Shown: positions 4,607-32,360 of the stretch, one piece after another | Numbering within the stretch: position 1 is the first letter of the stretch | Layout: every line of letters starts with the position of its first letter | Source of the DNA: a bacterium | GTDB taxonomy: Bacteria > CAIWAD01 | Assembly (NCBI GenBank): GCA_030685015.1 | Contig: JAUXWS010000043.1 | Location: forward strand, 62,001-126,000 | Reading direction: 5' to 3' | DNA length: 64,000 nucleotides | Notes under the pieces: model-generated | What the model saw: the letters and a program-made list of their open reading frames with translations, nothing else | Databases searched by the model: none | What the model was told of the DNA's origin: nothing | Translations under genes and position numbers: made by a program

Positions 4607-5233
4607 TCAAGGCAGGGTGGTCACCGGGGTCAGGCGATCCTGATGGTCGGGGCGGCGCGACGCGGCGGCGGAGGAATCCTCCTCCCAAATACGTTCAGCC
4701 AGGACGCCGTACTGCGGCGGGGTGGGGGTGGTCGTGGCCAAACTATCCTCCAGCATGACCGGACCGGCCGCTTCACCCTCCGCGGTGGCATTGGCCAATT
4801 GCCCGGCTCCCGGAGAGGCCGGACCCGACCACCTGCCCAGCAGGCCAAGCACGAGGGCGGCGGCCGCGCCGGCCACCACGAGGGCGGCGGGACGCCGCCA
4901 CCAGGAGCGATGGCGCAGCTCCACCACCATGCCCCGAGGCGCCAGCCCGGCGCCCCCTTCCAGCTTGGCATCAGGCTCAAAGCGGTCGGCGGCCGGGTCG
5001 CTGCCGTTGGCGCGCAGCGATTCCAGACGGCTGAACAGGTCCTGTTCAAAGGAGGGGTCGGGCGCTTGGCGCAAGCCGGGGAGGCTGGCGCGCAGGCTGG
5101 CAATGCGGTCGGCCGTCAAGCGGCAGGCGGCGCAGAGCTCCAGGTGCCCCTGGATGGCGCCACCCTCCGGATGGCCCGCCGGGTCCGCCAGCCAATCCCA
5201 CAGTTCCGAAGAAACCTGGTCGCAAGGAATCAT
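4607..5233 (-). CDS. Anti-sigma factor with zinc-binding (zf-HC2) domain
   Basis: 208 aa. The N-terminal motif His30-x3-Cys34-x2-Cys37 (GHLELCAACR) is the zinc-binding anti-sigma signature, with an earlier Cys4 as likely fourth ligand. A single transmembrane helix follows at about residues 115-133 (PAALVVAGAAAALVLGLLG), then a periplasmic tail of about 70 residues without a recognised domain. Such proteins hold their partner ECF sigma factor at the membrane until an envelope signal. The start codon overlaps the stop of the sigma gene (ATGA), the normal arrangement for a cognate pair. Confidence 0.88.
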   Translation of the reverse strand: MIPCDQVSSELWDWLADPAGHPEGGAIQGHLELCAACRLTADRIASLRASLPGLRQAPDPSFEQDLFSRLESLRANGSDPAADRFEPDAKLEGGAGLAPRGMVVELRHRSWWRRPAALVVAGAAAALVLGLLGRWSGPASPGAGQLANATAEGEAAGPVMLEDSLATTTPTPPQYGVLAERIWEEDSSAAASRRPDHQDRLTPVTTLP

Positions 5234-5808
5234 GGGCTCTCATCCTTGATGTTTTTCGCCAACAGTGTCATCAACCGGCCACGGGCGCGATTGATCCTGC
5301 TCTTGACCGTACCCAATGGCACACCGAGCATTTCAACGATCTCGTCATAGGAAAGTTCCTCAAGCTCCCGCAGGATGATCACTTCCCGGAACTCGTCCGG
5401 CAGTTGATCGATGGCCGCCCGCACCAGCTCGATGGTCATGTTGCGGTGGACCTGACTGTCCACGGCGGGGCCGGGGTGCGGCAGCTCGATGGGCCGGTCG
5501 CCCGGCTCGCGCGGTTCGAGGTCCACCCGCGGCTCGCGGGCCTGTCGACGCATCTCGGAGCGCACCAGATTCCCGGCAATGGTGTAGATCCAGGTGGAGA
5601 AGCGGGCGATGTTGCGGTACTTCAGCTTGTGGCGCCACAGGCGGATGAAGGTCTCCTGCAGGAGATCCTGGGCCAGGGGGCGATTGCGCACCATCTGGTC
5701 GATGAAAGTGAACAAGCGGTCACGATAGCGACGGACCAACTCGTCGAATGCCTCCTGCTCATCCTGCTGGAAGCGTTCCATCACCTCTTCATCGGTCAGA
5801 TGGGTCAT
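5230..5808 (-). CDS. ECF-type RNA polymerase sigma factor (sigma-70 family)
   Basis: 192 aa from MTHLTDEEVMERFQQD. Region 2 is at about residues 20-90 (FDELVRRYRDRLFTF, DLLQETFIRLWRH, FSTWIYTIAGNLVRSEMRR). Region 4 is at about 130-185, with the HTH segment LSYDEIVEMLGVPLGTVKSRINRARGRL. The ATG at 5808 overlaps the holA stop codon (ATGA); another ATG at 5820 would add four residues and cannot be excluded. It is followed directly by its anti-sigma partner. It directs transcription of an unknown regulon, plausibly including its own operon. Confidence 0.93.
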   Translation of the reverse strand: MTHLTDEEVMERFQQDEQEAFDELVRRYRDRLFTFIDQMVRNRPLAQDLLQETFIRLWRHKLKYRNIARFSTWIYTIAGNLVRSEMRRQAREPRVDLEPREPGDRPIELPHPGPAVDSQVHRNMTIELVRAAIDQLPDEFREVIILRELEELSYDEIVEMLGVPLGTVKSRINRARGRLMTLLAKNIKDESP

Positions 5809-6863
5809 GGGCGTCGGCATAGTCGGACCACCAACTGGAAGGTGATTTGTGACGGAGGAAGCGGGCTGTCGCCCTTGAGGGCCATGTCCGCCTCGAGCAC
5901 CAGGCGGAGGGCCTCCTCCAGCCTGTCCTGCGGCCATCGGGCCAGCGCGCCCGCCATGGGACGCATCTGGTAGGGGTTCAACTTGAGCCGCGCTTCGATT
6001 TCAGGCAGGGGATGCCCCCGGTCGCGCAATTGGGCGGCGAAGGCGAGGCGGCCCAGGCTCTTGCCCAGGATGCCCGGCAGGATGAAGGCGTTGTCCGGAA
6101 CACGCGAAAGGCTGCGCAGGATGGTCAGGGCGCGGGGCGTGTTCTCCGCCAGGATGGCGTCCACCAGGTCGAAGGGCCGGGCGTCGGCCTCCATGCCCAG
6201 GGCGTGGGCCAGGTCGAGCTCCCGCACCTCCGCGCCATCCTCCACCAACAGGCAGATCTTCTCGACCTCCTGCCGGGCCATGCGCAGCGGGATGTGGGCC
6301 AGCTGTTCGGCCAGGCCGGCCGCCAGGGCGGGCGGCAGCCGGCGGCCCAGCCCGGCGCAGGCCTCGCCCAGCCAAAGGGCCAGCTGGCGTGATCCCAGCG
6401 GCGGAAACTCGAAGACGGCCGCCTCCTTGAGCACGCGCGTCCAGACCTTGCGCCGCTTGTCCAGGGGCCAGCCGATGAGGAGAAGGCAGGTGGTGGGCGA
6501 GGGCTGGTCCAGGTAGCTCAGCAAGTCCTTGAGCAGGGCCGCCGGCGCCTTCTCGCAGCGCTTGAGCACCACCAGCCGCCGTTCCGCCATCATGGGAAAG
6601 GAGCCCGCCTGGGCGAACAACTCCTCGGCCCGCACCTCGTCGGCGTGGAAGAGGTCGCGATTGAAATCGGCGGTGGCAGGATCCGTCACCTTCTCCCAGA
6701 AAAAGCGGAAAGCCTCCTCGACCAGGTATTCCTCGGCGCCCTCGGTCCGGCCGCTTCCTGTGAGCAGGACAATGGGCGGCAGCAGGCCGCCGCGCAGATC
6801 CTCCTCGGTGGGCAGGCGCTTCCAAAGGCCCGTGCGGGCCGTGCCGGCCTGGGTCGGGCTCAG
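5805..6863 (-). CDS. holA: DNA polymerase III subunit delta
   Basis: About 352 aa, close to the usual 340. HolA opens the sliding clamp in the clamp-loader complex. Recognisable segments include PPIVLLTGSG, the AAA+-like strand and linker (ADEVRAEELFAQAGSFPMMAERRLVVLKRCE), and the C-terminal collar (ENTPRALTILRSLSRVPDNAFILPGILGKSLGRLAFA). There is no in-frame ATG, GTG or TTG between the stop of the preceding gene and the first conserved residues. The best candidate start is a CTG at 6863, which overlaps the upstream TGA and sits just after a strong GGGGGAGGG ribosome-binding sequence. The start is therefore tentative; the identity is firm. Confidence 0.85.
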   Translation of the reverse strand: MSPTQAGTARTGLWKRLPTEEDLRGGLLPPIVLLTGSGRTEGAEEYLVEEAFRFFWEKVTDPATADFNRDLFHADEVRAEELFAQAGSFPMMAERRLVVLKRCEKAPAALLKDLLSYLDQPSPTTCLLLIGWPLDKRRKVWTRVLKEAAVFEFPPLGSRQLALWLGEACAGLGRRLPPALAAGLAEQLAHIPLRMARQEVEKICLLVEDGAEVRELDLAHALGMEADARPFDLVDAILAENTPRALTILRSLSRVPDNAFILPGILGKSLGRLAFAAQLRDRGHPLPEIEARLKLNPYQMRPMAGALARWPQDRLEEALRLVLEADMALKGDSPLPPSQITFQLVVRLCRRP

Positions 6864-29168: not shown

Positions 29169-31052
29169 ATGGCGACCTGGCTGCTGAAAGGACTGTTTTT
29201 CACGGCACTGACCCTCCTGGCGGCCTGGCTCTTCTGGCGGGAGCTGTCCCGTCGGTTGGCCGCCCTGCGCCGGGCGCGCGGACCGCTGCCCCGGGATCGT
29301 CCGGAGCGCCGCTGGGCCCGGGTCCTGCGCGAGGTGCTTTTCCAGACGAAGGTGATCCGCCACCGGCCCCTGCCCGGCCTGGCCCATGCCTTGCTGGTAT
29401 GGGCCTTCGGCGCCTACTTCCTGGAGACGCTGGACCACTTGAGCAGGATCTGGCAGCCCCGTGGCTTCCTGCCCGATCAGGGCCTTTTCCATGTCTTGTT
29501 TCACGGACTGGTCGCCGTCTTCGCCTGGGCCGCCGCCGCCGGCATCATCGTGCTGGCCGTCAGGCGCTTTGTCCAGCGCCCGGTGGAGCTGGGCCGCAAC
29601 CTGTCCTGGTCCAGCGGCGCCGTCGCCCTTTTCATTCTGCTTCTCATGTTGACCTACCTGGCCAGGCATCACGGCTGGGTGCCCGACCAGGGACCCAGGG
29701 CGGAGCTGAACTGGAGCCTGCACACGATCGTGCTGCTTGCATTTCTCGTGCTGATCCCCCGCTCCAAGCACCTGCACCTGGTCCTGGGCCCCTTTGCCGT
29801 CTTCCACCGCAACGAGACCCCGGGCGAGCTGGCGCCCCTGGACTTCGAGCGCGAGGAGATGGGCGTGGACACCTTGGCCGGGCTGGGCCAGGCCAACGCC
29901 CTGGCCTTGTTCGCCTGCGTCGAGTGCGGCCGATGCATGGAACACTGCCCGGCCACGCAGTCGGGCAAGGCCCTGGATCCCAAGGAGCTGGTCCTCCGCA
30001 TGCGGGATGGTTTCCTGACGGACCCGGAGCAGCCCGCGGTCGGGCCGCAGGTGCCGGAGGATTGGCTGTGGCAGTGCACCACCTGCGGTGCCTGCGCCGA
30101 GCAGTGCCCCACCGGCAACGATCAACCCCTCAGCATTCTCGAGTTCCGGCGCGGCCTGACGAGCGAAGGGCGCTTCCCCGACACCCTGCGCACCCTCTTC
30201 GACAACCTGGAACGCAGCGGCAACCCGTGGCGCCACGCCGCGGTCGATGCAAGCGCCTTCCTGCGCGAGGCGGGCATACCCCTGCATGACGGCTCACAGA
30301 AGGTCCTCTATTGGATGGGTTGCATGGCGCGCTACGATGAGGCTTATCGTCGCGTGGCCCTGGATTTTGTCGCGATCCTGCGCGCCGCCGGCGTGGACTT
30401 CGCCGTGCTCAAGGACGAGAAATGCACGGGTGACGCCGCCCGCCGGGCAGGCAACGAGTTCCTCTTCCAACAATTGGCCATGGAGAATGCCGCCCTCATC
30501 AACGAGGCGGCCCCCGACCTGATCGTCTCCACCTGCCCCCACTGCATCCGCAGCCTGGACGAATACAAGTCCTTGCCGGACGAGATGCGGCTGCTGGATC
30601 GGCCCATCCTGCACCACAGCCAGTTCATCCGCCAACTGATCGAGCAGGGACGCCTGCCCTTGTCCACGACCCATGGCGCTCCGGTTCAGGACCTGGCCTA
30701 CCACGACCCCTGCTACCTCTCCCGCTACGTGGATGAAGGGGTGGACGCTCCGCGCGAGGTGCTGCGCGGCGCCGGTGTCCGCGTGCGCGAGGCGGAGCGG
30801 CATGGACGGCGCAGCTTCTGCTGCGGGGCGGGTGGCGCCCAGCTCTTCATGGAGGAGCGCGAGGGGCGGCGGATCAACCACATCCGCACGGAGGAGCTGC
30901 TGGACACGGGAGCCGGGACCGTCTGTGTCTCGTGCCCCTTCTGTCGCACCATGATCAAGGATGGCATGACCGACAAGGGACGCGGGGATCTTCCCGTGCT
31001 GGACCTGGCCCAGGTGGTGGCCCGCTCCCTGGGCAAGGCGGCGGATGTGTAA
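29169..31052 (+). CDS. ETF:quinone-type membrane Fe-S oxidoreductase (HdrD/GlpC-like)
   Basis: 627 aa, one of only two + strand protein genes. The N-terminal third has about six hydrophobic segments resembling a nitrate-reductase-gamma-type membrane domain. Two 4Fe-4S motifs follow (CVECGRCMEHCPA and CTTCGACAEQCPT, near residues 258 and 315), then two CCG-type domains (EKCTGDAARRAGN, HDPCYLSRY, FCCGAGGAQLFMEE, CVSCPFC). Known relatives pass electrons from electron-transfer flavoprotein to menaquinone. etfA and etfB lie just downstream on the opposite strand. A GGAGG site at 29160-29164 precedes the ATG at 29169. Confidence 0.9.
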   Translation: MATWLLKGLFFTALTLLAAWLFWRELSRRLAALRRARGPLPRDRPERRWARVLREVLFQTKVIRHRPLPGLAHALLVWAFGAYFLETLDHLSRIWQPRGFLPDQGLFHVLFHGLVAVFAWAAAAGIIVLAVRRFVQRPVELGRNLSWSSGAVALFILLLMLTYLARHHGWVPDQGPRAELNWSLHTIVLLAFLVLIPRSKHLHLVLGPFAVFHRNETPGELAPLDFEREEMGVDTLAGLGQANALALFACVECGRCMEHCPATQSGKALDPKELVLRMRDGFLTDPEQPAVGPQVPEDWLWQCTTCGACAEQCPTGNDQPLSILEFRRGLTSEGRFPDTLRTLFDNLERSGNPWRHAAVDASAFLREAGIPLHDGSQKVLYWMGCMARYDEAYRRVALDFVAILRAAGVDFAVLKDEKCTGDAARRAGNEFLFQQLAMENAALINEAAPDLIVSTCPHCIRSLDEYKSLPDEMRLLDRPILHHSQFIRQLIEQGRLPLSTTHGAPVQDLAYHDPCYLSRYVDEGVDAPREVLRGAGVRVREAERHGRRSFCCGAGGAQLFMEEREGRRINHIRTEELLDTGAGTVCVSCPFCRTMIKDGMTDKGRGDLPVLDLAQVVARSLGKAADV

Positions 31053-31157
31053 GCCAGACCTGCCATGCCACCAGACCAGTTAACCCAGGATGGATGAACA
31101 CAACCAAAATGGTGCAGGCATGAGCGACCGTTTCGCTGCTCTCTCGATTGCGCCAGA

Positions 31158-31180
31158 TCGAAGCCATTGTCCAGCTTCGA
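31158..31180. promoter_or_regulatory. Dyad upstream of sigma-54 promoter (putative activator site)
   Basis: Perfect 7-bp inverted repeat TCGAAGC / GCTTCGA separated by 9 bp. Its centre is about 78 bp upstream of the predicted +1 (31247), the range in which bacterial enhancer-binding proteins usually dock. The binding protein is unknown. Confidence 0.45.
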
Positions 31181-31220
31181 CTTCACCACGGGAACAAAAG
31201 ATGCAGGCGGGCGTTTGAGG

Positions 31221-31236
31221 TGGCACGCTTGTTGCA
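31221..31236 (+). promoter_or_regulatory. Sigma-54 (-24/-12) promoter
   Basis: TGGCACG at 31221-31227, four bases, then TTGCA at 31232-31236. This matches the consensus TGGCACG-N4-TTGCA at every fixed position, with the invariant GG and GC at the required spacing. It predicts transcription start at about 31247 on the + strand. No open reading frame follows; a structured segment and terminator do. Confidence 0.8.
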
Positions 31237-31246
31237 AAAGCAAGCA

Positions 31247-31385
31247 GCGTCAAGGGCCGAGGCCCGGCAAGGGTCCAAAGCCTGAGACATCCGCCTACCC
31301 AACCCTCTCTGTATAGCTGTGTGTGACGCGACAGCCGTTGACAAGCCCCGTCAACGGGAAGGGCCCCACCCCGGGGCCCTTTTTG
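31247..31385 (+). ncRNA. Predicted structured small RNA under sigma-54 control
   Basis: About 139 nt from the predicted +1 to the U-tract. GCGTCA (31247-31252) can pair with TGACGC (31324-31329), closing a roughly 80-nt 5' domain exactly at the predicted first base. Inside is a small hairpin GGGC-CGAG-GCCC near 31253-31264. After the domain comes a strong hairpin with 8-bp arms (31335-31342 and 31350-31357) and a 7-nt loop AAGCCCC, then the terminator. No start codon with ribosome site is seen. It does not match 6S, tmRNA, SRP RNA or RNase P as I know them. Existence is predicted, not shown. Confidence 0.6.
31359..31385 (+). terminator. Intrinsic terminator of predicted small RNA
   Basis: Arms AAGGGCCCC (31359-31367) and GGGGCCCTT (31373-31381) around loop ACCCC, followed by a run of T. 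A strong Rho-independent terminator on the + strand; it may also end read-through from the Fe-S oxidoreductase gene. Confidence 0.88.

Positions 31386-31415: not shown

Positions 31416-32360
<945 letters not shown>

Follow-up and report, generated by a model that had tools for sequence, protein, structure and literature searches.

Qrr, GlmY and CrcZ are encoded by stand-alone small RNA (sRNA) genes, which are transcribed from a -24/-12 promoter and require an enhancer-binding protein (PMC10162802, PMC7073468, PMC3162934, PMC6292655). On one view, sigma-54 itself controls the bacterial exterior (PMC3162934). In the FopS/GibS family of Bacteroides thetaiotaomicron, paralogous RNAs carry a conserved single-stranded stretch followed by the terminator hairpin; the family, which has been deposited in Rfam, contains intergenic members and one member derived from a 3' UTR, and is bound by the RRM protein RbpB (PMC11697453). 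Among non-enteric bacteria, Myxococcus has the regulatory sRNA Pxr, with predicted stem loops (PMC5684412, PMC10217877).

The element described here, RNA1, is a predicted sRNA of about 139 nt located in a 64,000-nt stretch of contig JAUXWS010000043.1 (the window, to which positions refer). It belongs to a lineage in which post-transcriptional control has been little studied. The genome that carries it (G000) was compared mainly with two congeneric species (G001 and G002) and with a sister genus (G003). Like the genes of Qrr, GlmY and CrcZ, that of RNA1 is predicted to stand alone and to have a -24/-12 promoter; it differs from them in coming from a distant lineage, where no Hfq was found, and in having no Rfam relation to them. 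Qrr, GlmY and CrcZ work in Pseudomonadota, several of them with Hfq. The likeness to FopS is one of architecture only: a module made of a conserved single-stranded stretch and a terminator hairpin, which occurs in several copies, some of them in 3' UTRs. In RNA1, however, the module core is placed directly before the terminator, and one member of the set has a sigma-54 promoter. The RNA1 locus gave no match to an Rfam model in a copy of Rfam that may not include FopS and, because no Rfam family matches, RNA1 is left outside the FopS family. Pxr is also linked to sigma-54; it has a three-stem architecture, and the Rfam search gave no match between it and RNA1. BjrC68 (RF02353), an sRNA of Bradyrhizobiaceae, shares with RNA1 a hairpin followed by a GC-rich terminator. 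Its model scored 17.2-26.6 bits, the best value (26.6 bits, E 0.002) being that of G002, against a gathering threshold of 39 bits; membership of RNA1 was rejected at this sub-threshold score, the resemblance being confined to two generic hairpins.

The RNA1 locus

RNA1 is located in a 363-nt gap between the gene of an Fe-S oxidoreductase (29190-31052, plus strand; Pfam CCG and Fer4), whose counterparts next to RNA1 in the relatives are 75-76% identical, and the convergent etfA (31416-32360, minus strand; Pfam ETF_alpha and ETF), an arrangement also found in G001 and G003. The first-pass annotation, made on this DNA alone, had named the neighbours as an ETF:quinone oxidoreductase and etfA. The second assignment holds, while the upstream CCG-domain/4Fe-4S oxidoreductase, which lies next to etfBA, is not shown to be a classical ETF:quinone oxidoreductase.

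A sigma-54 promoter, TGGCACGCTTGTTGCA, lies at 31221-31236 on the plus strand. As had been proposed, it matches the full consensus exactly, and sites of this type occur four times in the 3.61-Mb genome against none for a reversed control pattern. A relaxed pattern, TGGCACRNNNNTTGCW (TGGCACR), gave 24 sites in the three congeneric genomes against two control matches, the control patterns occurring about once per 5 Mb. By these counts, the predicted sigma-54 sites are genuine in the genus. The orthologous RNA1 promoters read TGGCACGTTTGTTGCT in G002 and TGGCACATGGCTTGCA in G001. The machinery for their use is encoded as well: rpoN (Sigma54_DBD) is present once per genome in all five genomes of the phylum examined, each of which also has at least 13 matches to PF00158, the AAA+ activator family. 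Elsewhere in the genus the sigma-54 sites are often followed by genes for proteins with a signal-peptide-like N terminus. Of eight such proteins tested, two scored above the Pfam cut-off for a T9SS sorting domain and two belong to Peptidase_C25, a secreted-protein context in line with the idea that sigma-54 governs the bacterial exterior.

Upstream of the promoter two dyads deserve comment as possible activator sites. The 7-bp dyad TCGAAGC-N9-GCTTCGA, which had been singled out at 31158-31180, is indeed there, but it is absent from both orthologues and near chance frequency: shuffling of 220-nt upstream regions yields arms of seven or more at a rate of about 0.16 per region. A weaker dyad, CCA-AAA-TGG (31104-31112), has its centre 113 bp before the -24 element, and counterparts are found in G002 (CCCCAAGTTGGGG, about 113 bp upstream) and G001 (CCCCAATTCTGGGG, about 115 bp upstream); the distances of 113, 113 and 115 bp were counted by hand in three sequences only. 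On present evidence the weak dyads are the better candidate for an activator site, although still a weak one.

The predicted +1 is position 31247, and the U run of the terminator follows about 139 nt further on, so that the spacing between the -12 element and the terminator defines RNA1 as 31247-31385 (plus strand). Its 5' part (31247-31297), which includes GCGTCA, is variable in the alignment. The conserved part is the 3' half, in which a C/U-rich tract is followed by UAGCUGUGUGUGACGCGACA, then by a hairpin and finally by the terminator. The tract, CCAACCCTCTCT (31299-31310), resembles an anti-Shine-Dalgarno sequence, and its 12 bases are identical in the three species, as are the 20 nt of the invariant core TAGCTGTGTGTGACGCGACA (31314-31333); the first 11 bases of the latter, UAGCUGUGUGU (31314-31324), constitute the core of a module shared with other transcripts. 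An 8-bp hairpin, CCGTTGAC-N7-GTCAACGG (31335-31357), is present in all three species with a loop of 5-7 nt, and the intrinsic terminator (31358-31384) consists, by folding, of a 10-bp hairpin at 31358-31382 and a U run. The terminator had been predicted from the window and is kept in the relatives in spite of turnover of its sequence. A simple terminator scanner listed none between the Fe-S gene and RNA1; the same scanner also misses the terminator of RNA1, which folding reveals. That terminator is probably shared with the upstream Fe-S gene.

The folding of RNA1 as a whole is less distinctive. Its energy, for which a comparison with shuffled controls had been suggested, is only modestly below that of the shuffles (z -1.9; 6/200), and in folds of the full-length molecule the unpaired share of the core is only 31-52%. 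Conservation, too, is a property of the 3' half and not of a molecule folded as a whole from +1 onward. The pairing of GCGTCA (31247) with TGACGC (31324), which had seemed to agree with the predicted +1 to the base, is absent in both relatives, where the 5' ends are GGGTCG... and CTGAAC...; TGACGC is kept because it is part of the invariant core. Mechanical open reading frames overlap RNA1, yet none is kept across species, since indels break every frame. This agrees with the initial description of the region as non-coding, and a small-peptide reading was rejected on account of the same frame-breaking indels.

Conservation of RNA1

Among 60 relatives searched at the DNA level, only the two congeneric species have the RNA1 element. 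In G001 and G002 it lies downstream of the same Fe-S gene, each copy with a sigma-54 promoter, and the two orthologues measure 137 nt in one case and 150 nt in the other. The G001 contig has the convergent etfA on the far side of RNA1, and the G002 contig ends before that point. (G001 is CAIWAD01; the NCBI label of G002 (DYSB01), Acetofilamentum sp. (Bacteroidota), looks doubtful.) An exact 19-mer of RNA1 was found in a large genome collection in the two congeners only, and in viral contigs it gave zero matches. The covariance search in related genomes that had been recommended placed one full-length copy in each of the three species, with no convincing match for a second full-length copy, so that RNA1 is single-copy; in G003 and G004 the model gave weak matches only, mostly noise. 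One weak match, L043 on contig C46 of G002, led to the discovery of the shared module. The other expectation attached to that search, compensatory changes, was disappointed: the 8-bp hairpin is nearly invariant in the three species and shows none, and because it hardly varies covariation offers it no support.

The degree of conservation is better appreciated against the neighbouring gene. Between G000 and G001, etfA has 76% identity in protein and only 49% at fourfold-degenerate sites, hence neutral sites have diverged far. Despite this divergence CCAACCCTCTCT and the 20-mer TAGCTGTGTGTGACGCGACA are unchanged in the three species, whereas the first 50-65 nt are unconserved, with two or three identical columns per 20 over 31253-31292. 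In the sister genus the same convergent genes are separated by only about 160 bp, which hold a terminator hairpin but no RNA1. Hence the locus has seen either a gain of RNA1 in the genus or its loss in the sister genus. The opinion that the region encodes a regulated small RNA outside the standard families is supported by the promoter, core, hairpin and terminator conserved at the locus in three species, and by an Rfam search that, even at a loose E-value, gave nothing above threshold for RNA1.

A 3'-end module shared with other transcripts

The sequence TAGCTGTGTG occurs at only nine sites in the four genomes (G000-G003). Eight of them have one layout: a C/U-rich tract, (A/U)UAGCUGUGUGU, a short spacer, a strong hairpin and usually a U tail; the ninth lies within a coding gene, on the sense strand. 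TAGCTGTGTGT is exact in the eight module copies, which come from two genera, and the downstream hairpins differ between loci. Folding of the modules pairs the hairpin and leaves most of the core, like the C/U tract, unpaired. The pattern was drawn from RNA1 and L043, so these copies (the three of RNA1 and L043) are not a blind test; the five further sites comprise four in G003 that have the layout and the coding one. A simple terminator test misses three of the eight copies, and folds show hairpins there.

Besides RNA1 in its three species, the copies are found in various settings. L043 (G002:C46) immediately follows the stop codon of a response-regulator gene and reads CCCCTCTTTTAGCTGTGTGTGTTGT, with a hairpin and a U tail behind it. 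A G003 copy (G003:C51:70912) also lies in the 3' UTR of a response regulator, the same kind of protein as that of G002 with a similar receiver domain, and another G003 copy is found 280 nt downstream of it. The two remaining ones terminate duplicated RNA-like units of about 240 nt in G003, 93% identical to each other (C25, L114 309-550; C51, L115 1698-1940), which are near tRNA-Gln and tRNA-Met genes; in one of them the U tail is weak. One unit directly follows an Amidase_2 gene, and a 98% identical stretch in an Amidase_2 gene is shared as well. The unit may be part of a mobile element; searches with the repeat core in viral contigs and with the repeat in phage records gave zero matches. Judged by its layout, RNA1 belongs to a so far undescribed set of RNA modules at 3' ends, known from two genera only.

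Function of RNA1 and alternative readings

Comparison of the genomes shows, at the level of sequence, a conserved promoter, a conserved 3' half, absence of the element from the G003 locus and a core common to other transcripts. We consider it probable (about 0.6) that RNA1 is a sigma-54-dependent regulatory sRNA, similar to FopS in build and with no detected sequence relation to it. Its transcription would start at a sigma-54 promoter of its own, located downstream of the Fe-S gene, would end at its terminator, and would be switched on by an enhancer-binding protein. It would act in trans without Hfq: the Hfq model (PF17209) had no match in the five genomes of the phylum, the same search being positive in 5 of 14 control genomes. 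The C/U-rich tract may pair with target mRNAs at their G-rich ribosome-binding regions. UAGCUGUGUGU, placed just ahead of the terminator, may act as a docking or stability element, whose partner would probably be an RNA-binding protein. RNA1 would hence work in the manner of FopS, yet under sigma-54 control as Qrr, GlmY or CrcZ.

Searches for target mRNAs were negative. The complement of the C/U tract, RGRGRGGGTTG, is unenriched (26 matches against 23 for the control) and away from recognisable starts, the 5' regions of sigma-54-driven mRNAs pair with RNA1 no better than shuffles, and no conserved pairing with the neighbouring genes was found. A perfect 10-nt complement of TAGCTGTGTG occurs in no mRNA of the four genomes, since the only site outside the modules is on the sense strand. 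This favours protein binding over a simple antisense seed for the TAGCTGTGTG part, although pairing through G-U is possible.

The lack of a target also suits a simpler explanation, in which the C/U tract and UAGCUGUGUGU are a processing, stability or termination signal, RNA1 is no more than a conserved 3' UTR belonging to the Fe-S mRNA, and the sigma-54 promoter is incidental. The copies just after response-regulator stop codons speak for it, as does the lack of a listed terminator between the Fe-S gene and RNA1. We nevertheless regard it as unlikely. The promoter precedes the module at the locus in all three species, and its incidental presence is hard to explain because the control pattern occurs only about once per 5 Mb; moreover, the module is missing from G003, where the Fe-S gene and a terminator are nevertheless present.

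Two further explanations are less probable still. RNA1 could overlap the 3' end of the convergent etfBA mRNA and regulate its stability in cis, tying the output of electron-transfer flavoprotein to a sigma-54 signal; etfA is convergent in G000 and G001, and there is no clear minus-strand U tract for it ahead of RNA1. However, the core recurs at unrelated loci and is therefore not kept for pairing with etfBA, and G003 has the gene arrangement without RNA1, so the synteny is simply inherited. Equally improbable is a trans-acting sRNA in which the species-variable 5' part is the seed and the 3' half a stabilising scaffold. The free divergence of the first 50-65 nt beside a preserved 3' half speaks for it, but the seed is usually kept in conserved sRNAs and the 5' part is under no visible constraint.

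As a sigma-54-dependent sRNA with a FopS-like build, RNA1 would be of a known kind; as far as the tools show, the novelty lies in the family, its distribution and its link to sigma-54 in this lineage. Two known themes meet in it: sigma-54 as a regulator of the cell exterior, and multicopy sRNAs without Hfq. We tentatively extend this reading, with the odds against it, to the proposal that UAGCUGUGUGU and the C/U tract before terminators are a docking tag for an RNA chaperone in a lineage where no Hfq was detected. The tag would mark a whole class of regulatory RNAs, whose sources would be the 3' ends of mRNAs, duplicated RNAs and stand-alone genes; one of these genes would have come under sigma-54 together with surface and secreted proteins. 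RNA1 and the 11-nt signature of its family provide a concrete, testable sRNA gene in an uncultured phylum (five genomes examined), and the signature is a handle for the RNA-binding protein and for further members. The first reading of this locus was partly supported, and the observation on which it was built was mostly right.

A second sigma-54-promoted RNA

Another structured RNA with a sigma-54 promoter, RNA2, was observed in both genera. It is about 200 nt long and has its own terminator. Its sites are on G000:C67 (L096 ~5340-5557, minus strand), G002:C163 (L097 ~5809-6020), G001:C133 (L098 ~4985-5198, minus strand) and G003:C11 (L103, reverse complement, promoter at 1393). Within the genus it is 84-86% identical, and six pairs show two-sided compensatory changes among the three congeners; Rfam gave zero matches for it. 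About 620 nt upstream of RNA2 there is another sigma-54-type promoter, followed by a conserved transcript (L096 5919-6144, minus strand; L097 5213-5438; L098 5587-5814, minus strand; L103, reverse complement, promoter at 789). The transcript encodes a protein of 49-51 amino acids with one hydrophobic span (MEKIFEVH...FLILLLVLCLFGM in G000), present in four species of two genera and with zero matches in Pfam.

GCAAAATC is carried by two sigma-54 transcripts (L061 and L056), in both at the 5' end (predicted +3/+4). It can pair over about 12 nt, a length judged by eye and including some G-U pairs, with the conserved GUUUGAUUUUGCU of RNA2, a possible target rule for this RNA. The promoter region of RNA2 (L097 ~5785-5850) has CAAGAAGCCCATTCG upstream and CGAATGGGTTTCTTG downstream, which form an inverted repeat flanking the sigma-54 promoter. 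Most of this repeat is preserved within the genus, and part of it in G003.
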